NCBI GenBank assembly: GCA_020845495.1
Contig: JADLFM010000141.1
Coordinates: 1 to 64,000, forward strand
Direction: 5' to 3'
Length of the DNA: 64,000 nucleotides
DNA from: Chloroflexota bacterium
GTDB taxonomy: Bacteria; Chloroflexota; UBA6077; JACCZL01
The notes below the pieces were generated by a model. The model had not been told where the DNA came from and did no database searches. It saw only the letters and a list, made by a program, of their open reading frames with translations. This document shows positions 125 through 44,700 of the stretch, in pieces. How positions within the stretch are numbered: the first letter of the stretch is position 1; each line of letters opens with the position of its first letter. The position numbers were made by a program, and so were the translations under genes.

Positions 125-483
125 AAGGGTCGCGCCGGCGTGATGCCCCGATCGGGGGATGCCGTCGAGGTAGCCGGACGCTCGGCGCCACCTTCGACGT
201 ACGAACGTGCATCCCAGTAATGCGCGCTCGTGGCGTAACCACGCGCGCCCCGCAATCGAAACACGCGCTCGACATCTTTTCAGAATGGGGGCGACCGGCT
301 TAGAATGGGGACGACGCCCGGGTATCCCCGCCGGACCTATGTCGTTCGTTTAAGTAACGAGCAGGCGTCATGGCGCTGCTGCTCGCCCCACGACTGACCT
401 GAGCGGAAGGCGCGGTGTCCGCGCGATGCAAGCCCGATGCACCGGGCGCTTCGTCTGACCTCCGCCCCAGAGGAGTCTGCCGC
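125..483. other. Intergenic stretch without a convincing gene; paired direct repeats
   Basis: No ORF here has a ribosome-binding site or a family resemblance. Two 14-base direct repeats, AGAATGGGGGCGAC at 282-295 and AGAATGGGGACGAC at 302-315, differ at one base and start exactly 20 bases apart, about two helical turns. They lie about 170 bases upstream of the exported protein gene and could be a regulator site, but no regulator is known. Confidence 0.5.
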
Positions 484-2946
484 ATGACCCAGAAGCCCAA
501 GCACAACCGTGTGGGAGGGTTGCGCTCCGCTGCGACTGGGGGCACGCGGCTGCGCTTGCCTGGCTCGGCGATCCGCTCTGGTCGAGCGATACCGGGCTGG
601 ATCCTCCGGCTGTCGCTCCTGCTCGTGTTGGGCTGGGCGCTGACCGGCGCGATGGGAAAGCCTTCGGACTTGACGCCGGCGTTTGCCAGCGGACGCCCCG
701 TCGACGCGTCCGTACCCAACCGTCCGCGTGCGGTGCCGGCTGGCCAGTACTTCCCCGAGACCGGCTTCAGCGTCCAGAACGGGCCGATTGGCGACTACTT
801 CCGCGCTCGCGGCGGCGTCCGAGCCTTTGGCCCGCCGATTTCCAACGAACTGACGCTACTCGGTGCACCGACCCAGTTCTTCCGTGACTTCCTGCTGCGG
901 CAGAATCCAGACGGCTCCGTCTCGACCCTCGACCTGTTCGGCATGGGCGCGATCCCGGGCCTTCAGATCGGCGGCCGGACGCTGCCCGACGTCGATCCGT
1001 CGGTGACGGGCGCGGCGCCCTCGCCCGATCTCCCAGGCTATGCGACTCAGGTGCAGGCGTTCGTTGCTGCCCGCGTTCCCAATCAGTGGGAGGGGATGGC
1101 GGTCGGCTTCCTAGCCCGGTATCAGGGCACCGTCACCTTTGAGGATGCGTTCCCCGGTGGCGCCGGCGACCGCGGGTTACTGCCGGGGATGGCGCTCGAG
1201 GTGTGGGGATTGCCGGTGAGCCAGCCGGTGCGCGACCCTGGGACGCCAGACATCGTCTACCTGCGCTGGCAGCGCGGCATCATGACCTACGACGCACGGA
1301 CCGGCGTCGTCGAGACGCTGCCGCTCGGTCAGGTCTTCAAAGCGGTCGTCACCGGCCAGAACCTGCCTCCGGACCTGGAGGCTGCCGCTCGGCAGTCGCC
1401 GTTCTACCGCCAGTTCGACCCGAACGCGCCCGGCAGCGTAGCGCGCCCGGCTGCCCTGGCCGATACCAATCTCGCGGATGCCTTCCTCCCGGATGGCACG
1501 ACGGCCGCGGCGGTGGCGCAGCAGCAGAGCCCGCCTCCCTGGTGGGAGCTTACGCCGACCGTCACGCCGAATGGCTATCAGCCGCCCGCCCCGCCGCCGC
1601 CATACACCTTCCCAGGAGGCAACGCCGGGTACCCGACCCCGACGATGACGCCATACGGCTATCAGGCGCCGCCGGGGTATGCTGGCTTTCAGACGCCGAC
1701 GGCCACCCCGTACGGCTACCAGGCCGGCTATCCGACGCCCAACACCGGCTTCCCGGTGGGTGCCGCGACGACGGGAACGCCGGGTTCGGACCCCTGCTAC
1801 GGCGACGAGCAGATGACGTACGTACCCGAGACACCGCGCGTGGGGAACGACCTGATCGTCGCCATCTCGTCGGCCAGGCCGCATCCATACGGACGGCTCA
1901 TGGGTACCGAGCGTGCCGAGAAGCTTGGGGATCGGCCGGGTCAGCTTGGCTGGGTGCAGGAATGGAAGATCGTTCCCTCCTACCCTGGCGACCACGAATA
2001 CACCTTCTACGTCGACTCGACGATCCCGTGTAAGAAGATCCAACTGAAGGTGGAGAAGGCGCTCGCGACCAGGACGCCGACGCCGACCAAGACGCCGAAG
2101 CCGTACTACTACAATGGCAACAGCAATGGGAACGACAATAGCAACTCGAACGGCAATGCCAACAATAACTCCAACTTCACGAGTGGCACCGCCGACGTCT
2201 ACGCGTCCTGGACGAGTGGGCCGTCGTCGCTAGCACGGAACGCCACGGCTGACTACACGGTGACGGTCGGGAACAATGGCCCCGAGACGGCCGATAGCAT
2301 CACCGCGACCGGCTTCATCAGCGGGTCCGGCGCCGACATCGTCAACGCCTCCTTGAACGGGAACGGGTGCTCGATCTCGGGCGTCCAGTTCTCCTGCACG
2401 ATGGGCCAGATCGGACAGGGCAACTCGGTGCCGCTCGTCTTCACGATCCGGGCGACCGGGGGCTCCTCGCCGTCGTTCAGCGCGACGGTCTCGGTCAGTT
2501 CGAGCCGCGGCGACTCGAACTGGTCCAACAACTACGCCTACTCGCCGACAATCACGATCGCGGGTGCCAACCCCGTCGATACGCCCACCGCGGTAGCGAT
2601 CGTCCAACCGACCGCCACCACCGGGCCGTTCAACCCGGTGGCGTACATCGGCCAGGGCGACCGCTACAACTGCGTCGACTTCCAGTCTCAAGCCGACGCC
2701 CAGGCGGTCTTACGAGCCGACGTGAGCGACCCGAACCGCCTGGACACCAGTAATCCCCAATCGGCGACGACACCAGACGGAATCGCCTGCGCGACCAGCT
2801 ACGAGGCCCCTGAGTGGGCCTCCTGGTTTTATTACCCCGAGCCGCACGACATGACGCCGGTCGCCACCCGTATCCCCGCGCCGACCAAGGCGCCGCTCAG
2901 CCCGGACGCCACGCCCCACACGACCCCAGGGGTCGCCCAGCCGTAG
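484..2946 (+). CDS. Large exported multidomain protein (ETGF/GGVR domain, DUF11-like and excalibur-like domains)
   Basis: Predicted protein of 820 residues. ATG 484 is chosen over the upstream GTG 415 because AGGAG sits about 8 bases before it. A hydrophobic segment near residues 41-57 looks like a signal or anchor. It is followed by the domain containing FPETGF and YFRARGGVRAFGPPIS, which recurs in the genes at 36817 and 38698. Then come Pro/Thr/Tyr-rich low-complexity stretches, an Asn/Ser-rich linker, a DUF11/CARDB-like beta domain near residues 575-690, and a C-terminal module with YNCVDFQSQADAQ and DGIACA resembling an excalibur calcium-binding domain. The function is unknown. The export signal, disordered linkers and beta domains point to a surface-attached role. 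A strong terminator follows directly. Confidence 0.85.
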   Translation: MTQKPKHNRVGGLRSAATGGTRLRLPGSAIRSGRAIPGWILRLSLLLVLGWALTGAMGKPSDLTPAFASGRPVDASVPNRPRAVPAGQYFPETGFSVQNGPIGDYFRARGGVRAFGPPISNELTLLGAPTQFFRDFLLRQNPDGSVSTLDLFGMGAIPGLQIGGRTLPDVDPSVTGAAPSPDLPGYATQVQAFVAARVPNQWEGMAVGFLARYQGTVTFEDAFPGGAGDRGLLPGMALEVWGLPVSQPVRDPGTPDIVYLRWQRGIMTYDARTGVVETLPLGQVFKAVVTGQNLPPDLEAAARQSPFYRQFDPNAPGSVARPAALADTNLADAFLPDGTTAAAVAQQQSPPPWWELTPTVTPNGYQPPAPPPPYTFPGGNAGYPTPTMTPYGYQAPPGYAGFQTPTATPYGYQAGYPTPNTGFPVGAATTGTPGSDPCYGDEQMTYVPETPRVGNDLIVAISSARPHPYGRLMGTERAEKLGDRPGQLGWVQEWKIVPSYPGDHEYTFYVDSTIPCKKIQLKVEKALATRTPTPTKTPKPYYYNGNSNGNDNSNSNGNANNNSNFTSGTADVYASWTSGPSSLARNATADYTVTVGNNGPETADSITATGFISGSGADIVNASLNGNGCSISGVQFSCTMGQIGQGNSVPLVFTIRATGGSSPSFSATVSVSSSRGDSNWSNNYAYSPTITIAGANPVDTPTAVAIVQPTATTGPFNPVAYIGQGDRYNCVDFQSQADAQAVLRADVSDPNRLDTSNPQSATTPDGIACATSYEAPEWASWFYYPEPHDMTPVATRIPAPTKAPLSPDATPHTTPGVAQP

Positions 2947-36115: not shown

Positions 36116-36634
36116 TCACCCGTCGCTCCGATCCGTCAGCGCACGGCGACGCCACGCGGCGAGCACGAGTGGCGCGTGTGCAAACGCGAGTTGTGCGGGT
36201 AACTTGCCTGGCTCGAACCAGCCGAGCTCAGCGGCATCGTCGGCTGCGCGTGGCTCGCCGCCGATGATATGCGCCAGGTAGTAACAGTTTAGGGTGTGCA
36301 CCCGATCCTCGCCCTCGCCGTAGGTGTCCATCCAGATGCCGAGCAGGTCGCTGACCGCGACGTCAAGGCCGGTCTCCTCGCGGGCCTCGCGTATCGCTCC
36401 CCCAGCGGGGTGCTCGCCGGGTTCGAGGAAACCGCCGGGGATATCCCACCAGCCTCGGAATGGCTCGATGGCGCGCCGCACGAGTAGCACCCGCCCCGCT
36501 CGCTCGATCGCCACGCCAGCACACGGCTTCGAGTTCTCGTAGGCCGGGCGCCCACATGCTGCGCAGGTGAGCGCACCGTCTGCGTGCGAGTCGAGCCGGC
36601 CGCCGCAACGACCGCAGAAGCGGGGCCGAGCCAT
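36116..36634 (-). CDS. Nudix hydrolase with N-terminal zinc ribbon
   Basis: 172 residues. A four-cysteine zinc ribbon (FCGRCGGRL and CAACGRPAY) precedes a Nudix domain whose box runs from GGFLEPGE to REAREETGLDV with all catalytic glutamates. This arrangement resembles the NudC/NADH-pyrophosphatase branch and other zinc-ribbon Nudix proteins; the NudC-specific SQPWPFPxS motif is absent, so the substrate is open. ATG 36634 follows GAAGG; an in-frame GTG one codon earlier is also possible. Confidence 0.92.
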   Translation of the reverse strand: MARPRFCGRCGGRLDSHADGALTCAACGRPAYENSKPCAGVAIERAGRVLLVRRAIEPFRGWWDIPGGFLEPGEHPAGGAIREAREETGLDVAVSDLLGIWMDTYGEGEDRVHTLNCYYLAHIIGGEPRAADDAAELGWFEPGKLPAQLAFAHAPLVLAAWRRRALTDRSDG

Positions 36635-36695
36635 CACCCTTCTCGAGGGCGCCGTGGTCCGTCGATTGTCACGTTCCCAGACCTTCTACGAGCGA

Positions 36696-36724
36696 GGGTG
36701 GAGGGGTCTGAGACCCCTCCACCC
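36696..36724. repeat. Perfect 14-bp palindrome
   Basis: GGGTGGAGGGGTCT and its exact reverse complement flank one central base. It lies between the end of the exported protein gene at 36817 and the start of the Nudix gene. No T-run follows on either strand, so it is either a very stable 3' hairpin protecting the upstream message or a dispersed repeat element. Confidence 0.8.
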
Positions 36725-36816
36725 CGGTACAGGTGCGGGCCGGGCACGTCCTGTCGCCTGGCCAAGTCGCCACGCGCCGTTCACCAGCGCCATTCGCTCC
36801 TCGTCTCGCCCGCTTC

Positions 36817-38430
36817 TTAGCGAACCTTCAACTCGATGCGCACCCAGTCCGAGCGCGCGCCGCCCTTCTGCCGTGCCCGCGCCAGGATGTCGAAACTGCC
36901 GCTCTTCGTCGGCTTGACCGTCCAGGTACGAGCGCAGTCCTTCCGATTGTTGCAGTCGTACCGCTGCTCGTCGTCAAGCGCTGAGTCGCCGGTATCGTCG
37001 CCCTTCCAGGCAATCCAATCCAAGCCCGTGTCATCGCTCGCGATGACGGTCAACTCGATCGATTGGCCCAGGTTGATTCGCTCGTCACTCAACTGGATCC
37101 GGACGTTCGGTAGGGATGGCGTGGGCGTGACGGTTGGGGTTCCGGGGCCGGGTGTGGGCGTCGGCGTTGAAGGAGTGGGCGTGACGGTCGGTCCCTCACG
37201 CACGCGTAGCCGCTTCGTCACCCAGTCCGTGCGGGCGCCGGTGTTGTCCCTGGCACGTGCCCGGATATCGGTCGAGCCTGACCTGGTGGGGGTCACGTTC
37301 CAGACATACGCGCAGTCGGTCTGGTCATCGCACTGATCGTAGCGCTGACCGTCGAGGGCCGGATCGTTGGAATCTCGCCCCTGCCACTCGATCCAGGTCA
37401 GGCCGGTCGTGGAGTGGGCGATGACGGTGAGGGAGATCGATTCGCCTGGATCGATCAGGTCGTCGCTGATCTGGAGGTCCACTGTCGTCGTCGACGTCTG
37501 GGTCGGCGTCGCGGTCGGGGTGGCCGTTGGGCCGCTGGGTGTGGCTGTCGGTGTGGGCTGGCTGGGCTGAGGCGGCGCGGTCACCGGGCCGGTACCTGGC
37601 TCGAAGGCACCGTTCAGGTTCGTATTCTGGAGCTCGTTCGGACGGGCCAGCCAGTTTGGCGCGCCTGGGCGATACTGACCGAGGAAGCGGCTGCCTTGCA
37701 TGTCCTGTGCAAGGTCTGGCGGCAGGTTCTTCCCGGTCATGACCGCCTTGAGGTACTCGCCGACGAGAATGCCTTCGGTGACCGGGACTTCGGCGCGGAA
37801 GTGCATGATGCCGCGCTGGAACCGCTGATAGACGAAGCCGCCGTTGCCCGGGTCCGCCGCCGGCTGCGAGGTTGGCAGCCCCCAGATCTCGAGATTCAGC
37901 AACGTCACGAGACCGGGGTTCGTGACTCCACCGGGAAAGGCGATGTCGACCGGAACGGTCGTGTTGAACAGGTCAAAGAAGCCGACCTTCTGGCCGTTCC
38001 AGGTGTTTGGCGCGACCGACCGTACGAACTCGACGACTCGGTTCGGATAATCAGACGATCCAACCTGGGGTGCCGCCGATGCTAGCGACGGATCAGGAGG
38101 AGGAAACACCGACTGATTCGCGCGGGTCATCGGCATGATGTTGGGGTCGAGAATGTTCAGCCGCTGCACCTGATCGCCCTGTAATTGCAGGACGACGCGC
38201 TGGTAGAACTGGACGGTAAACCCCTCCAGCGTAAAATCGCGTGAGATCGGGTAGCCGAGGATGCGGACGCCACCTCGCACTCGGAAATACTCGGCAAATG
38301 CCGGGTTGGTGATGCAGAACCCGGTCTCAGAAAAACAGTTCGCCTGTGCATCGGTCGGCCGTCCCGGCGGTGCGATGGCCGCGACGAGTCCGACGATCAG
38401 GAACCCGACGAGAACGGCGAGCCGTTTCAT
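36817..38430 (-). CDS. Exported ETGF/GGVR-domain protein, paralogue A
   Basis: About 537 residues. A signal peptide (MKRLAVLVGFLIVGLVAAIA) leads to a domain of about 230 residues with CFSETGFCITN, YFRVRGGVRILGYPIS and FQRGIMHFRAEVPVTEG, shared with the genes at 38698 and 484. A Pro/Thr linker and two copies of a beta domain follow, each with DWIxWxG, a Cys-x6-Cys pair (e.g. CDDQTDCA) and a DIRARARDNTGAR-like end. ATG 38430 starts the signal; the frame opens at 38535. Function unknown, likely cell-surface. Tandem with paralogue B, 267 bases apart on the same strand. Confidence 0.85.
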   Translation of the reverse strand: MKRLAVLVGFLIVGLVAAIAPPGRPTDAQANCFSETGFCITNPAFAEYFRVRGGVRILGYPISRDFTLEGFTVQFYQRVVLQLQGDQVQRLNILDPNIMPMTRANQSVFPPPDPSLASAAPQVGSSDYPNRVVEFVRSVAPNTWNGQKVGFFDLFNTTVPVDIAFPGGVTNPGLVTLLNLEIWGLPTSQPAADPGNGGFVYQRFQRGIMHFRAEVPVTEGILVGEYLKAVMTGKNLPPDLAQDMQGSRFLGQYRPGAPNWLARPNELQNTNLNGAFEPGTGPVTAPPQPSQPTPTATPSGPTATPTATPTQTSTTTVDLQISDDLIDPGESISLTVIAHSTTGLTWIEWQGRDSNDPALDGQRYDQCDDQTDCAYVWNVTPTRSGSTDIRARARDNTGARTDWVTKRLRVREGPTVTPTPSTPTPTPGPGTPTVTPTPSLPNVRIQLSDERINLGQSIELTVIASDDTGLDWIAWKGDDTGDSALDDEQRYDCNNRKDCARTWTVKPTKSGSFDILARARQKGGARSDWVRIELKVR

Positions 38431-38697
38431 AGCGTGTGTACGGACCTCCATACCGCGGGGGCCGTCGACGCCATTCGGCCTTACCGACGACGTAATGCGC
38501 GCGCCCTCCGTATCGTTAGAAACTGGTGAGATCACATCCGGTCGCGCGGCAGTCTCGGAGAAGGCCCGGCCGAGCTACGCCGCCGCTGGGTATCGCCCTG
38601 ACGGCGCGGCCAGATGGCCTACTTACAAGACAACGACGGCCCGCGGCTCGCTCGGTGAGGGACGCGCCGCGGGCCGTATGTCGGAAAACCGAGTGGG

Positions 38698-40137
38698 TCA
38701 GGGGGCCGGCGTGGACGTGGCGGTCGCGGTGGGCTCCGTCGTGGGGGTGAACGTCGGCGTGGCCGGGACGGGCGTCGGCGGAATGGGCGTCTCCGTCGCA
38801 GTTGGGGCCGGTACTGATGTCTCAGTGGGAGTCGCGGTCGGCGTCGCAGTATCGGCCGGCGCCGCTGTGAACGTGGGAGTTGGCGTTGGCCCGATCCGGA
38901 TTCGCAGGGGGATACGGGTCCACTCGCTGCGGACGCCGGCGGTGTCCCGTGCGCGTGCCCGCAGCGTGTAATCACCTGGGACGGTCGGCGCAATCGTCCA
39001 GATGTTGGCGCAACTCGTCTGACTATCGCAGGGGAACCGTCGCGTCTGGTCGAGCTCTGGATCGCCGGTGGCCTGGTCGCGATCGTTCTTCTGAATCGTC
39101 CCGTCCCATTCGATCCAGTCGAGCCCCTGGCTACTGTTGGCGATGACGGTGACGGTGATATTCTGCCCGGGGTCGATGCGATCGTCGTCCACCTGAATGG
39201 TCACCCGCGGCGCGTTGGGTGCGACCGTGCCGGTCGGGGTCGGCGTCTCGGTGGGGCCGGCGGTGGGCGCGGGCTCGGTCGGCTGAGTCACCGGGCCGGT
39301 ACCCGGCTCGAAGGCTCCGACCATGTCTGTGTTCGGAAGCTCGGCGGGGCGATTGACGGCATTGACGACGACCGGATTGTACTGTCCAAGGAATCGACTG
39401 CCCTGCATGTCCTCGGACAGATCTGATGGCAGATTCTGGCCGGTGATGACCGCCTTGAGGTACTCGCCGACGAGAATGCCCTCGGTGACCGGGACCTCGG
39501 CGCGGAAGTGCATGATGCCGCGCTGGAACCGCTGGTAGACGAAGCCGCCATTGCTTGGGTCAGCCGCTGGCTGTGATGTTGGCACGCCCCAGATTTCGAG
39601 GTTGAGCAGGGTTACCAGATTCGGGTCCGGGGTCGTGCCCGGGAAGGCGATATCGACCGGGACAGTGGTATTGAACAGGTCGAAGAACCCGACCGGCTGA
39701 CCGTTCCAGGTGTTCGGCGACACCGACCGCACGAACTCGATCACCCGCTGAGGGTAGTTGGACGAGCCAACTTGCGGCGCCGACGACGCGAGGGCCGGAT
39801 CAGCCGGCGGGAACACTGAGCCGTTAGCGCGGGTCATTGGCATGATGTTCGGGTCAAGAACGTTCAGGCGTTGGACTTGATCGGCCTGCAATTGGAGCAC
39901 GACGCGCTGGAAGAACTGGACGGTAAAGCCGTCTAGTGTGAAGTCGCGTGAGATCGGATAGCCGAGAATGCGGACGCCGCCGCGCACCCGGAAATACTCG
40001 GCGAACGCCGGATTCGTGATGCAGAACCCGGTCGCCGCAAAGCAATTTTCCTGGGCTTCGGTGGGTGACTCCGGCGGCGCGACGGCCGCCGTCGTCGCAA
40101 CGATGACGAATGCCAACAGGATTGCTAGCCGTTTCAC
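38698..40137 (-). CDS. Exported ETGF/GGVR-domain protein, paralogue B
   Basis: About 479 residues, closely similar to the gene at 36817 over the signal peptide and first 260 residues. The first Cys-flanked motif reads CFAATGFCITN, so the ETGF form is changed to ATGF. It has only one copy of the Cys-pair beta domain (SQGLDWIEWDG, CDSQTSCA) and ends in a long Pro/Thr-rich tail, where paralogue A has a second copy. GTG 40137 is chosen because GGAG lies six bases upstream. The length difference suggests gain or loss of one module after duplication. Confidence 0.85.
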   Translation of the reverse strand: MKRLAILLAFVIVATTAAVAPPESPTEAQENCFAATGFCITNPAFAEYFRVRGGVRILGYPISRDFTLDGFTVQFFQRVVLQLQADQVQRLNVLDPNIMPMTRANGSVFPPADPALASSAPQVGSSNYPQRVIEFVRSVSPNTWNGQPVGFFDLFNTTVPVDIAFPGTTPDPNLVTLLNLEIWGVPTSQPAADPSNGGFVYQRFQRGIMHFRAEVPVTEGILVGEYLKAVITGQNLPSDLSEDMQGSRFLGQYNPVVVNAVNRPAELPNTDMVGAFEPGTGPVTQPTEPAPTAGPTETPTPTGTVAPNAPRVTIQVDDDRIDPGQNITVTVIANSSQGLDWIEWDGTIQKNDRDQATGDPELDQTRRFPCDSQTSCANIWTIAPTVPGDYTLRARARDTAGVRSEWTRIPLRIRIGPTPTPTFTAAPADTATPTATPTETSVPAPTATETPIPPTPVPATPTFTPTTEPTATATSTPAP

Positions 40138-40165
40138 GATCTGCTCCTCGCTCCACACGCAAAGC

Positions 40166-40187
40166 GCACCCCATCGAAACGGGGTGC
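40166..40187 (-). promoter_or_regulatory. Leader hairpin ahead of paralogue B
   Basis: GCACCCC and GGGGTGC flank an eight-base loop, about 30 bases upstream of the GTG start and likely in the 5' leader. There is no T-run, so it may act on translation or message stability. No promoter was found. Confidence 0.4.
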
Positions 40188-40700
40188 AATGCGCGCGCTT
40201 CAGTTGTATGGCCTACCAGGGAAACGGACGTCTGCCCCGAAGGACTCGCCACCTATTGCCTGCATCGATCGCCGGGCTCAGTCTACAGCTTCGGGCCGTA
40301 GCACACCCTCTACGTGCACCTCGATCGTCGCGCGTGCCCACGTTCTTGGCCGCGTGTACACCATGTGAACCGACCGACGCACCTGTTGCGACGTCATGAG
40401 CAGTGTCTGTCGAGCAGTACGGCTGGAGGTGAGCGTGGGTCAGGGCGCGCGGAGCGGCCGAACCGACAGCTCACGTAACGACGGCAGCAGGCATAGGTCA
40501 GGGCGCGCAGGCAGGAACCGGCTGGTTGCCGTGTCGGCGCATGCGCGGGGCGGTGGGCGCCTCGCGCCGACTCACCACGTTTGCCCGCTCACCAGAGCGT
40601 GCCCCGTTTGCACGACAACCGCTATCCTTAGCGCTCGGATGACGTGTTGCGTGCAGACGGCCCGTAACCGCCGACGCACCGCGCCAGGGGTCAGCCCGAC
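40188..40700. other. Divergent intergenic stretch, no supported gene
   Basis: About 510 bases between the divergent paralogue B and a small membrane protein. ORFs here are Arg/Ser-rich and lack ribosome sites. The word GGTCAGGGCGCGC occurs twice (about 40439 and 40497). No RNA gene is recognised. Confidence 0.5.
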
Positions 40701-40889
40701 ATGAGCCAGACGAACGACACCACTCACGCTCAGCCTACGCCGAGGGCGCCCGATTGGGAGGGCGACGACGGCGTTTCGATGACGACGGTCGTCGTGATGC
40801 TCGTCGTCCTGGCCGTGCTGGTCGTGGGGCTGTTCTGGGTCGTGCCGAGTTGGTTCGGCGGCGGGCTGGTGACGGTCAGCCCGCGCTAG
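40701..40889 (+). CDS. Small single-helix membrane protein
   Basis: 62 residues: a polar acidic N-terminus (about 26 residues), one strong helix MTTVVVMLVVLAVLVVGLFWVV, and a short Gly-rich end. ATG 40701 has AGGGGT about ten bases upstream. Short one-helix proteins of this form are common but unnamed. The tandem GGGGCGCACATC repeat (from about 40889) follows the stop. Confidence 0.6.
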   Translation: MSQTNDTTHAQPTPRAPDWEGDDGVSMTTVVVMLVVLAVLVVGLFWVVPSWFGGGLVTVSPR

Positions 40890-40944
40890 GGGCGCACATC
40901 AGGGGCGCACATCGCGTCCGGGAGAGCGGTCGCCAGGGCCGCTA

Positions 40945-41049
40945 GTGGGTCACGTCGCATCTGGCTGAGAGCCCCTACCTTTCCTCCGCGCGGGAGAGAG
41001 GCGGCCGATCCGAAAGCGCCGAGGCTCCATCAATGGTGGTGTGACCCAC
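40945..41049. repeat. Separated inverted repeat (9-bp arms)
   Basis: GTGGGTCAC at 40945-40953 and its exact reverse complement GTGACCCAC at 41041-41049 enclose 87 bases in the gap between the small membrane protein and the receiver gene. The enclosed part contains a GCGCGGGAGAG word resembling the dispersed GC-rich repeat. This could be a small non-autonomous element, but no target duplication was seen. Confidence 0.4.
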
Positions 41050-41069
41050 GAGCACCGCTCGCGGCGGTG

Positions 41070-41480
41070 TCAGGCCGTGCCGACGTGCCGCTTCACCATC
41101 GAGAGCAGATCGTCGATCTCGAACGGCTTGCTGAGGATGTCGCAGCCCTGGCTGCGTAGGCGCCCTTCCGCTTCTTGAAGCTCCCTGACCGCGCCCGAGC
41201 AGATGATGACTGGGATCTGGCGGGTCCGCTCGTTGGCCTTGATCGCGTCGAGAATCTGCCACTCGCCGACACCCGCGATCCGAAGGTCAAGAATCACGAG
41301 GTCCGGGCGCACCCGGAAGATCGTGGCCTCGGCCTGCGTACCATCCTGGCAGGCCACGACGTGGTAGCCCTCATCTTCGAGGATGATGGTCACCAGTTCG
41401 AGCACCTCGGGCGTGTCGTCGACAACCACGATCGTGGCTGAGTCCGCCCGCCCGTTTCGTTCATCCGCCCCAGCAGTCAT
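41070..41480 (-). CDS. Receiver-only response regulator
   Basis: 136 residues forming a single CheY-like receiver domain. It has acidic Asp21-Asp22 in VVVDDTPE, phospho-acceptor Asp65 in LVILDLRI, Ser95 in IICSGA and Lys118 in SKPF, all the residues needed for phosphorylation. There is no output domain, so it must act by protein contact. No histidine kinase is nearby. ATG 41480 has GAGGG upstream. Next gene upstream on the same strand is the CBS-BON protein, 63 bases away. Confidence 0.92.
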   Translation of the reverse strand: MTAGADERNGRADSATIVVVDDTPEVLELVTIILEDEGYHVVACQDGTQAEATIFRVRPDLVILDLRIAGVGEWQILDAIKANERTRQIPVIICSGAVRELQEAEGRLRSQGCDILSKPFEIDDLLSMVKRHVGTA

Positions 41481-41543
41481 CGGTGGAGCCCTCTGCCAGA
41501 CAGCATCATCTGACAGGATACCCGGCGGCTACCTCGCAAGGCA

Positions 41544-42251
41544 TTATCGTTCGTCGGCGATGTCAGGCCGCACGATGAGCCGATTGTCGACCGCCCGTAC
41601 ACCCGGCGTACCACGCGCGGCGATCTCGATCGCTTCGCGCTCGGCTTCGCTCTCGACGTCCCCGGTGAGCGTCACGACGCCGTCCTGACTTGTCGGGCGG
41701 ATGAGGCTCACTTCGGCCCATGGTTCGCTGCTCAGGCGCTTGAGGAGATGCTCGACGATCTGGGCGTCGGAGACCGTTCCATCGTGCTGCTCGCGGTCGA
41801 GAGATAGGAGGCGCTCGTAGGCCGCGCGCAGCACGTCGGCGCGGCTGACAATACCGATCAGTCGTCCGTTCTCGACGACCGGCGCCCGCTTGATGTGCCG
41901 CTCCGCCATCAGGTGAGCGATCTCCTCGACGGGCGTCCCGGGCAGGATCGTGAGAACCGGGCTGGTCATCACGTCTTCGGCGACCAGGCCGTGCGCTTTG
42001 CGATACTCGGTCGCAAGCTTCTCGTGATCCGCGAACACCTGCTGAGCCAGGAAGGCCATGCCGCCGCGCTGACGGTAGGCGCGCTCGCGCAGGATCAGAT
42101 CGCCTTCGCTGATGATGCCGACAACCGTGCCGTCGTCGACAACCGGTACCCCACTGATGCGATGGTCGAGGAGCAGCCGGATCACCTCACGGACGGGTGT
42201 CGACCGCTCGACCGTGTAGAGGGTCGTGCTCATGATGTTCCGCGCCCGCAA
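41544..42251 (-). CDS. CBS-CBS-BON protein
   Basis: About 235 residues: two CBS motifs (ARNIMSTTLYTVERSTPVRE and VAEDVMTSPVLTILPGTPVE), which usually bind adenine nucleotides, then a C-terminal BON domain (VVTLTGDVESEAEREAIEIA). TTG 42251 is preferred because CBS proteins typically begin Met-(Lys/Arg)-Ala-Arg-Asp-Ile-Met and the Leu aligns with that Met; ATG 42233 would start inside the motif. A sensor of energy charge, perhaps at the membrane, is the usual guess. Divergent from the threonine-synthase-like gene. Confidence 0.87.
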   Translation of the reverse strand: MRARNIMSTTLYTVERSTPVREVIRLLLDHRISGVPVVDDGTVVGIISEGDLILRERAYRQRGGMAFLAQQVFADHEKLATEYRKAHGLVAEDVMTSPVLTILPGTPVEEIAHLMAERHIKRAPVVENGRLIGIVSRADVLRAAYERLLSLDREQHDGTVSDAQIVEHLLKRLSSEPWAEVSLIRPTSQDGVVTLTGDVESEAEREAIEIAARGTPGVRAVDNRLIVRPDIADER

Positions 42252-42293
42252 CGGTCCCGTCCGACTGCCTCGTTCGCATCGTTCGTCTGCGCG

Positions 42294-42299
42294 ATTGTA
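42294..42299 (-). promoter_or_regulatory. Possible -10 box for the CBS-BON gene
   Basis: On the minus strand TACAAT lies about 45 bases before the start; a TGGCGA 17 bases further up is a poor -35. A second TACAAT at 42331-42336 on the plus strand faces the divergent gene and is only ten bases from its ATG. Confidence 0.3.
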
Positions 42300-42345
42300 G
42301 CACTCGTCCGGTTGCCTCGCCACGAGGACGTACAATGGCTTGACC

Positions 42346-43545
42346 ATGTCCACACATCGGCGGGCGGCCCGGCCGGACCACGATGACAACGCGTGCGCGG
42401 AGCGGACCGAAACTCGGCCCGCCGACGCTGGTCGGCCGGCTATTGACGACGCCGCCCGGCTGACCGACGGGTGGCGACTAATCTGTCCCGCCTGCGGCGG
42501 CGAGCCGCGCCGACGGGCGCAACGGGTCTGCCGGTCATGTGCTGCCCCCTACGAACTGCTGCCCAGCCCTGCGGGTGGGATCGCGTACCCTCCTGCACGG
42601 CTGTCGCCGCTCACCGAGGGGATGGCGCGTTGGCTCGGCCTGAGCGCTACCCCGCTCGTCCCATCGGGGACGCTGGGCGGATTGTTTGGCCTTGGGTCGC
42701 TCTCCTTCAAGCTGGAGTCGCGTAACCCGGCCGGCTCGTGGCTCGATCGGAGTGGAGCGCTGGCCGTTGCCGCCGCATATGCGGACGGGGCCGCCGGGCT
42801 GCTCACGTGGTCGAGCGTCGCACTCGCGACCGCGCTCGCCCTATCTGCGAACCGCCTTCGGCTTCGGACCGTCTTCCTCCAGGCAGTACGTCCCGACCCG
42901 CCTCCGTGGCCTGCCGTGCTGGCAACGCTCGGCGCTCAAGTCGTGCGGGTCGACACGACGCAGGGCGCGCTGCAACGGGCGGCTCCTGCCCTTGCGCGAC
43001 GGCACGGCCTCCAGGTGCTCGATGCTGACGACCCGTTCGTGCGGGCGGGCCTCTGGACGCTCCCCTTCGAGATCGCGGATGACGCAGAGCCCCGCCCGGA
43101 TCTCGTCATCCTGCCCCGGCTCGCCGGCAATGAGGCCGACTGGTGTCGGCGCGGTTTCGAGATCTGGTCGGCGCTCGCCGGCGGCCCGTCGCCCCGGGTG
43201 GTCGCCGCACTGGTGGGAGAACGGACGCACCTGCCGGCTGAGCTTGCAGCGTGCGACGAGGTGAGCGTGTTGCCGCGTGAGGTCGGGGCGGCGCGGCGGC
43301 TGCTGGCCCGCCAAGAGGGCCTGTTGGCCTCGACGTCAGGAGCGGCCGGCGTGGCGGCGCTCGCTCGGATGGCCCACGCGAAGGTGCTTCCCCTCGGTGC
43401 GCGCGTCGTCGTCGTGCTCGCGGCTGAATATGGCGCTGACGTGTGCCAACCGCCGGCCGCTGAGGAGCAGCCAGCTCTGACACCGATCTCGTTGACCGCG
43501 CTCCGGCGCGATGCAGACCGGGTGCTGATGACGCCGCCGATGTAG
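42346..43545 (+). CDS. Threonine-synthase-like protein lacking the PLP lysine
   Basis: 399 residues, with a zinc ribbon (Cys47, Cys50, Cys62, Cys65) and a fold-type II PLP-enzyme body like ThrC: FKLESRNPAGSWLDR, PDLVILPRLAGNEADW, a LLARQEGLL...SGAAG segment and VVVVLAAEYG line up with family blocks. The Schiff-base lysine of the usual SFKDR is Leu133 (SWLDR), the SSGNTG-type loop reads SSVALA, and the phosphate loop GNGGN is replaced by LAGNEA. PLP catalysis therefore looks impossible. The frame is intact over the full length, so it may have a kept non-enzymatic role. ATG 42346 is used; TTG 42340 also fits. Confidence 0.8.
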   Translation: MSTHRRAARPDHDDNACAERTETRPADAGRPAIDDAARLTDGWRLICPACGGEPRRRAQRVCRSCAAPYELLPSPAGGIAYPPARLSPLTEGMARWLGLSATPLVPSGTLGGLFGLGSLSFKLESRNPAGSWLDRSGALAVAAAYADGAAGLLTWSSVALATALALSANRLRLRTVFLQAVRPDPPPWPAVLATLGAQVVRVDTTQGALQRAAPALARRHGLQVLDADDPFVRAGLWTLPFEIADDAEPRPDLVILPRLAGNEADWCRRGFEIWSALAGGPSPRVVAALVGERTHLPAELAACDEVSVLPREVGAARRLLARQEGLLASTSGAAGVAALARMAHAKVLPLGARVVVVLAAEYGADVCQPPAAEEQPALTPISLTALRRDADRVLMTPPM

Positions 43546-43652
43546 CGTTCTCGGACCCCCATCGGCCCTGGACGTTCCCCGTCGGAAGGAACTGCCGCGC
43601 GCAGCCTCGGCACGGTACGCTCAATCGGACGTTGCCGGCGAGGTGAGCAGCG

Positions 43653-44084
43653 ATGGTGGTAGTAGTCGTGCACGGCGAGGACGGGCTACGCCAGGAAATC
43701 CATGCCCGTGACAAAATGGTGGTCGCCGACGAGCCGAGCGAGGCAGGCGGGACCAATGCCGGTCCGACGCCGTACGAACTGCTCCTCGGTGCGCTCGGCG
43801 CGTGTACGGCCATAACGATTGTGCTCTACGCTCGCCGCAAGGGCTGGCCCGTCGAGCGGGTGCAGGTCGAACTGGAGCACGCGCGGGTCCACAGCCGTGA
43901 TTGCGAAGCGTGCGCGTCGAAGGACGTGTACCTCGACCGCATCAGTAAGCTCGTGACCGTGGCTGGTCCGCTCGACGAGACCCAGCGCCAACGCCTGGAG
44001 GACATCTCGCGGCGCTGCCCGGTCCAGCGCACCCTGGCGGGGACTGTCCAGATCGATGATCGGCTGCGACTCGGCCACCCGTAG
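43653..44084 (+). CDS. OsmC-family protein
   Basis: 143 residues. The two redox cysteines of the OsmC/Ohr fold are present, Cys51 in GACTAITI and Cys122 in RRCPVQRTL, with PTPYELLLGALGAC matching the family. An extra CEAC pair sits near residues 84-87. Family members reduce peroxides or have unknown roles (YhfA-like); the short form with CPVQRTL resembles the YhfA-like branch. ATG 43653 has GAGGTGA six bases upstream. Confidence 0.9.
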   Translation: MVVVVVHGEDGLRQEIHARDKMVVADEPSEAGGTNAGPTPYELLLGALGACTAITIVLYARRKGWPVERVQVELEHARVHSRDCEACASKDVYLDRISKLVTVAGPLDETQRQRLEDISRRCPVQRTLAGTVQIDDRLRLGHP

Positions 44085-44394
44085 GCAGCCAACGCAGGTC
44101 TGGGCAGCCAACGCACGTCGGCCGTCAGCGGCTCGGTCGTCGGTTGCCCGTCGTCAGTGGCTCGGTCGTCGATGCTTCGACCCTGCTGGCCTGGACGTCT
44201 CGGGCCTGAAGGGGCCTCGATCGAGGGCCGTTGCTCCCGGACGTCACTCGCACGGTAGCGGCCATCCTCCCTTGAGCGTCCGCCCGTATTCCTGGTATCC
44301 ATCCGTACGCGCGTCGTACCGTCATCCGTCGACGCTGTCACAGCGATGACGCCGCGTCGCGACCTCTATCCATCGCCAGATCGGGCCTCGGAGC
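44084..44394. repeat. Intergenic stretch with short tandem duplications
   Basis: GGCAGCCAACGCA occurs at 44084 and 44103. The 20-base word CGTCAGCGGCTCGGTCGTCG at about 44123 recurs with one change at about 44151. Both pairs lie directly after the OsmC gene. The remaining 200 bases hold no supported gene. Confidence 0.6.
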
Positions 44395-44400
44395 ATGCGC

Positions 44401-44700
44401 GTGGACGACGACACCCCCAGGCTGGTCTACAACCCGGATGATGGTTCGGTCGATCTGCGGCTCGGCGCTCAAACCGTCACCGTGGATGGAATCGTCGGTG
44501 ACGTGGCGTTCGAGCGGATGATGCCCGATGGCGAGAGTGCCAACGCCCTCTGGCTCGGCAGGAATGAAGCCGACGTGCTGGCGAAGATGATCCGGCATGT
44601 CCTGGGGAACATCAAGATCCGTTCGGAGTCCGAGAAGTCCCTACGCGATCTGCTGCCGCGTGTCGAGGCGCTGACCGAGGGCAGGAGCGATGGCAGCTAG
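44401..44700 (+). CDS. Conserved-looking small protein, unknown
   Basis: 99 residues, acidic, no signal or helix anchor. It starts DDDTPRLVYNPDDGSVDLRLG, has NALWLGRNEADVLAKMIRHVL in the middle and ends in a charged helix. GTG 44401 follows GGAG by seven bases; ATG 44395 would leave only one base after it. The regular alternation of strands then helices suggests a folded domain. No family recognised. The antisense ORF is discarded. Confidence 0.65.
   Translation: MDDDTPRLVYNPDDGSVDLRLGAQTVTVDGIVGDVAFERMMPDGESANALWLGRNEADVLAKMIRHVLGNIKIRSESEKSLRDLLPRVEALTEGRSDGS

Follow-up and report, generated by a model that had tools for sequence, protein, structure and literature searches.

A lysine-less threonine-synthase-like protein belongs to a clade of probable pseudoenzymes that kept the fold

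Introduction

The gene at positions 42346-43545 (+) of the window, our term for the whole 64,000-nucleotide stretch of DNA analysed here, encodes a protein (P0001) that resembles threonine synthase and lacks the Schiff-base lysine that would hold pyridoxal phosphate (PLP). Is this protein still an enzyme, a relic in decay, or a protein kept for some other role? The preliminary description of the sequence had read it as a likely pseudoenzyme, perhaps under selection for a non-catalytic role, such as binding an amino acid or regulating a partner. Pseudoenzymes are defined, in the part of the source drawn on here, by the lack of conserved catalytic motifs (PMC10211241).

Results

Translation of 42346-43545 gave an uninterrupted frame of 399 codons, as had been claimed at the outset. 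The product matched the Pfam family PALP (PF00291) with 85.1 bits (gathering score 35, E 7.2e-24), which places it in this superfamily, and its predicted fold is that of the PALP, or fold-type II, proteins. Its top solved relatives are threonine synthases (6cgq/6nmx, 1uim and 2c2b). The model for threonine synthase itself (TIGR00260, EC 4.2.3.1) gave P0001 12.3 bits against a curated cut-off of 167.1, and gave the six proteins that group with it (see below) 26.3, 49.5, 51.3, 69.5, 78.8 and 101.7 bits. The lysine-bearing proteins P0011 (192.1) and P0012 (167.8) pass this cut-off.

The database gene call for P0001 begins at Met93, past the zinc ribbon, and yields a piece of the protein (P0002). 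We favour the longer form, ribbon included, because of homology: the similarity between P0001 and P0011 spans the ribbon and continues to near the C-terminus. When drift was simulated by substitution only, 0.7% of 2000 runs still had an open frame after 0.5 random base draws per site, 0.3% after 0.8 and none after 1.2. We take the frame to be real coding DNA because P0011 homology extends along its length and because an open frame is so rare in the simulation. The third-position G+C of the gene (0.79) is like that of the surrounding genes from 36116 to 44700 (0.77-0.82), and thus its composition does not look foreign. Its second-position G+C is 0.60 (window mean 0.50, sd 0.056), and 0.46 of its residues are Ala, Arg, Gly or Pro, compared with 0.41-0.48 in the clade and, among lysine-bearing relatives, 0.37 in P0011, 0.35 in P0012 and 0.42 in P0004. 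The high second-position G+C and the content of these four residues, together with a long branch described below, could reflect relaxed constraint on P0001. A search around the gene for promoter and terminator matches found none.

Three altered cofactor contacts had been noticed in P0001, and the alignment bears out each of them. Codon 133 (CTC, 42742-42744) encodes a leucine at the position of the Schiff-base lysine of threonine synthase, so that SFKDR has become SWLDR. Residues 156-160 (42811-42825) read S156-S157-V-A-L in place of S-T/S-G-N-x, where S-T-G-N is expected. Residues 258-262 (43117-43131) read L-A-G-N-E where the enzymes have their glycine-rich phosphate loop, although the A-G-N of P0001, shifted by one residue, can be aligned to a genuine loop, as phmmer does. 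In addition, the stretch from the phosphate loop to the E324-G325 motif (43132-43317) is shortened, with 67 residues from residue 257 to E324. P0001 has thus lost conserved catalytic motifs, which is what marks a pseudoenzyme at the level of sequence. The zinc ribbon has been kept, again as first described: C47-x2-C50 and C62-x2-C65 (42484-42540) line up with the ribbon cysteines of P0011 and P0127 and would be expected to bind zinc. All of these features lie on the forward strand, as does the gene.

A sequencing error was rejected as the cause of the missing lysine, since P0003, an independent metagenome protein 39% identical to P0001, likewise reads SWLDR. A replacement for the Schiff-base lysine was also rejected. 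The only lysines of P0001 are K122 and K346, and K122 is invariant in 60 of 60 alignment rows; the sole lysine of P0143, in a K-L-E motif, aligns with it. Such invariance could suggest that P0001 is an enzyme by another route, with PLP carried on K122 or with PLP-free chemistry. However, K122 is just as invariant in the enzymes that also carry K133, and therefore we take it to be structural. The Asn, the glycine-rich loop and the C-terminal Lys have been lost as well, and we regard catalysis by another route as very improbable.

Is the loss of the lysine peculiar to P0001? A protein search with P0001, which scored the 7999 candidates sharing the most words, returned seven matches including its own protein; P0003 carries SWLDR and the other five keep SFKDR. 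No close orthologue of P0001 was found among these 7999 candidates. Two further protein searches (the best 120 of 884 matches and the best 120 of 365) added P0009, P0010, P0127, P0128 and P0143; these scored the 7999 and 7996 candidates sharing the most words, and additional clade members may exist. P0009 is a near copy of P0003. The six relatives, which have L, L, L, A, A and D in place of the lysine, are public, mostly metagenomic proteins.

We aligned 243 of the 244 proteins, including P0001 and leaving out P0002. The Schiff-base column holds Lys in 234 of them, Leu in P0001, P0003, P0009 and P0143, Ala in P0010 and P0127, and Asp in P0128. P0001 and P0127 have the full ribbon and P0128 has half of it; the gene calls of P0003, P0009, P0010 and P0143 lack it, which misplaced starts could explain in part, as they do for P0002. 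Outside the lysine-less group, the column is a gap in P0154 and holds Gln in P0156. P0156 reads GSFQAR and still has the glycine-rich loop, and it is a possible second, independent loss of the lysine.

In a tree of 68 rows (IQ-TREE, LG+C20 PMSF), the seven L, A or D proteins form one side of a branch supported at 100/100, and P0156 falls elsewhere. When the cofactor-motif columns and the deleted segment were masked (42 rows, 271 columns), the clade was recovered at 99.9/100, or at 99.7/100 without P0143. In the same masked tree the clade grouped with P0011-P0014 and P0016 at 99.3/100. These trees place the lysine-less clade as sister to the lysine-bearing zinc-ribbon threonine-synthase group (the P0011 group). 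With a stricter cut to 178 columns, P0143 falls outside the clade. Support for the other six is 98.3/74 when P0143 is included and 97.9/97 when it is not, and when P0003 and P0009 were also dropped the remaining four held at 97.5/81. Both P0001 (2.7) and P0143 (2.55) have long branches in the 68-row tree, about 1.6 each in the 42-row tree. By these placements, P0143 appears to be the least sure member of the clade. Independent losses of the lysine within the clade are disfavoured by the 68-row and masked trees, with P0143 as the uncertain member. As far as sequences can tell, the Schiff-base lysine was lost once, in a deep single origin, with a caveat for P0143. The pseudoenzyme reading is thus supported, and it now extends to seven proteins that form a clade of single origin.

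The clade was also sought in genomes. The Schiff-base motif of the fetched loci carried Lys in 36/36, 15/15, 7/7, 23/23 and 10/10 cases, with some places counted twice. Pattern searches matched 40 stretches in genome contigs and 29 in viral contigs, none of them a relative, and a further search of genome contigs gave 36 loci, all with Lys and none a clade member. Among the loci fetched from 400 genomes of the phylum of G004, with at most five candidates per genome scored, there was no clade member; the best reached 181 bits, compared with 283 for P0011. The loci fetched from the family (3 genomes; best 56 bits with P0002), order (16 genomes) and class (29 genomes) of G062 held none either. The phyla of G007 (43 genomes), G408 (347), G414 (356) and G412 (352) gave none at E <= 1e-62, which are weak negatives, with at most 50, 6, 6 and 6 candidates per genome scored and no positive control genome.

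The P0001 gene was said to lie between a divergent CBS-BON gene and an OsmC gene, and this is what we see. The start of the CBS-BON gene (41544-42233, -) is taken to be the Met aligned with G215, and the OsmC-like gene (43653-44084, +) lies downstream of the P0001 gene and is co-directional with it. The P0001 gene lies 112 bases from the CBS-BON start (42233) and 107 bases ahead of OsmC (43653). Of the 400 genomes searched, G062 comes closest to the window in a TldD-like marker (69%), and G215 is of the same family. In G215 the CBS-BON (62%) and OsmC (60%) genes are immediate neighbours, oriented back to back with their starts 109 bases apart and no gene between them, and a homologue of window 44395-44700 comes after the pair. 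The marker, compared within a single phylum, and these loci suggest that the window is from Chloroflexota. The P0001 gene has been either gained in the window's lineage or lost in that of G215. Because G215 has the two neighbours adjacent without the P0001 gene, they say little about the function of P0001. G095 and G191 have OsmC without an adjoining CBS-BON gene. We found no partner, operon or conserved neighbour for P0001 in the window and the relatives' loci compared, and no second ThrC-like gene within the 64-kb window. Relatives of the window from the same order carry lysine-bearing ThrC-like genes.

Some other features of this region may be recorded. The frame at 44395-44700 (+) encodes 101 residues with no Pfam match at E 0.001, and its homologues lie just after OsmC in G215 and G095 (52% each), making it a small, conserved neighbour of OsmC. 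The frames at 36817-38535 (-) and 38698-40158 (-) lie next to each other and encode similar secreted-type proteins whose linkers are rich in Pro and Thr. G215 has one such protein beside CBS-BON (L089, 195-1649), which suggests that the pair arose by tandem duplication in the window's lineage. Window 415-2946 also matches the G215 protein (36%). The stretch of G191 (L087) that matches OsmC contains a single in-frame TAG.

How much of the enzyme has been kept? Among 53 lysine-bearing proteins, 58 columns are at least 85% conserved. Counting gaps as lost, all seven clade members keep 17 of these columns and P0001 keeps 31; nine are kept by none of the seven (F132, K133, N159, K188, I313, P330, K364 and two in the deleted segment). 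The phosphate-loop column and the E-G motif are separated by 53-68 residues in 7/7 clade members and by 80-109 in 53/53 lysine-bearing proteins. For six members of the clade, P0009 left out, the mean pairwise identity was 0.19 in the pocket (20 columns picked from motifs, some in poorly aligning loops) compared with 0.46 elsewhere, and 0 of 5000 random column sets were as low. The lysine-bearing rows gave 0.68 in the pocket and 0.43 elsewhere. Part of our choice of columns follows what we take to be the pocket of ThrC. Judged from these alignments, the pocket has passed from the best conserved part in the enzymes to the least conserved in the clade, and the remainder is about as conserved as in the enzymes.

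P0001 itself keeps 54 of the 89 columns invariant in P0003, P0009, P0010, P0127 and P0128 (background 0.25), and 37 of 55 clade-invariant columns when P0143 is added (background 0.27). Its fold, predicted with pLDDT 86 and pTM 0.85, resembles that of threonine synthases, a likeness to be expected anyway from an input alignment dominated by lysine-bearing enzymes. A constrained fold with a released pocket lends support, at the protein level, to the proposal of selection for a non-catalytic role. It makes less likely the idea that P0001 binds an amino acid in the old site, as the residues there vary among clade members.

These comparisons bear on two further explanations. P0001 might be a metabolite sensor, with the emptied pocket remodelled for an amino acid or phosphorylated compound and signalling through the zinc ribbon or a partner. 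The pocket would be the natural site for such a change, and the Arg of a D-D-P-F-R stretch is kept in P0010, P0127 and P0128; the lysine-bearing P0011 has the same Arg. However, P0001 has Val where those three proteins have Arg, and the old site, with its identity of 0.19, has no conserved new residues across the clade. We consider a sensor rather unlikely. Alternatively, P0001 might be a relic whose function is gone and whose frame is open by chance or for want of time. The long branch, the lack of a close orthologue among the 7999 candidates scored, the absence of the gene between the same neighbours in G215 and the G+C-rich residue make-up are what such decay might produce. Yet the lysine-less state is common to a deep clade whose members are still open frames, P0001 has retained 54 of 89 clade-invariant columns, and simulated drift at 0.5 draws per site or more left fewer than 1% of runs with an open frame. 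We give decay little credence.

Discussion

The explanation that we favour overall, with modest confidence, is an ancient pseudoenzyme clade that has lost its cofactor, kept its fold and acts through a partner. The parts of this proposal differ in strength. P0001 is very probably a pseudoenzyme. It probably no longer binds PLP, given the motifs that it has lost, and we infer that it makes no threonine. Whether it acts by binding a protein partner seems to us evenly balanced.

We propose a model in which the clade would have split off the zinc-ribbon threonine-synthase group and lost the Schiff-base lysine once, as well as the other parts of the PLP pocket. Its chain would have been trimmed beyond the phosphate loop and the fold retained. 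The protein may act through a surface, and the likeliest way would be as a non-catalytic subunit or scaffold that binds another protein. A candidate partner would be an intact threonine-synthase-like enzyme, as in other enzyme and pseudoenzyme pairs, or a different protein. Threonine synthases are monomers or dimers, in the portion of the source used here (PMC9081730), and a mixed dimer with an intact ThrC would therefore be a sensible first guess, not a result. More tentatively, a threonine-synthase-derived bacterial family without its cofactor could serve as a scaffold or partner-binding subunit, with the active site drifting inside a conserved fold-type II body.

If this is true, a fold-type II scaffold can be kept for non-catalytic reasons in a deep bacterial clade, one that has lost the lysine, the cofactor loops and part of the chain. 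There is also a practical point: the source name of P0003 is threonine synthase, which could falsely complete the threonine pathway in genome-based models.

The nearest known system is ThrC of the zinc-ribbon type (the P0011 group). P0001 has in common with it the fold, the ribbon cysteines (as in P0011), the N-P-x-G-S-x-x-D-R frame and homology along the length; it differs in lacking the Schiff-base lysine, the S-T-G-N motif and the glycine-rich loop, and in its shortened C-terminal half. We found no lysine-less threonine-synthase-like family in the open-licence literature searched.

LCB1 of serine palmitoyltransferase and AZIN1 belong to PLP fold types other than fold type II. The part of PMC2748086 drawn on presents them as inactive PLP-enzyme homologues that stand beside or regulate active ones; unlike P0001, they are eukaryotic. 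Rv3778c of M. tuberculosis is a PLP-enzyme homologue without the PLP lysine that was judged likely non-catalytic, as given in the section of PMC12910592 used here. It is bacterial and lysine-less like P0001, but it is a relative of cysteine desulfurase and P0001 of threonine synthase. Pseudoenzymes are well known, and for PLP fold type II the plant TSB-like protein is the one described case that we found in the literature searched. TSB-like of core eudicots is, according to the part of PMC12727527 consulted, a paralogue of tryptophan synthase beta that has no catalytic activity and activates TSA. By that partial account, it is related to a fold-type II PLP enzyme, is itself non-catalytic and has been retained for a role at the protein level, as may be true of P0001, and it therefore sets a precedent for a non-catalytic role in this fold type. 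It differs in that two key residues have changed (positions 190 and 386) and its partner is known, whereas in P0001 the lysine and, to judge from the alignment, the whole pocket are gone. For P0001, activation of a partner in the manner of TSB-like is proposed by analogy.
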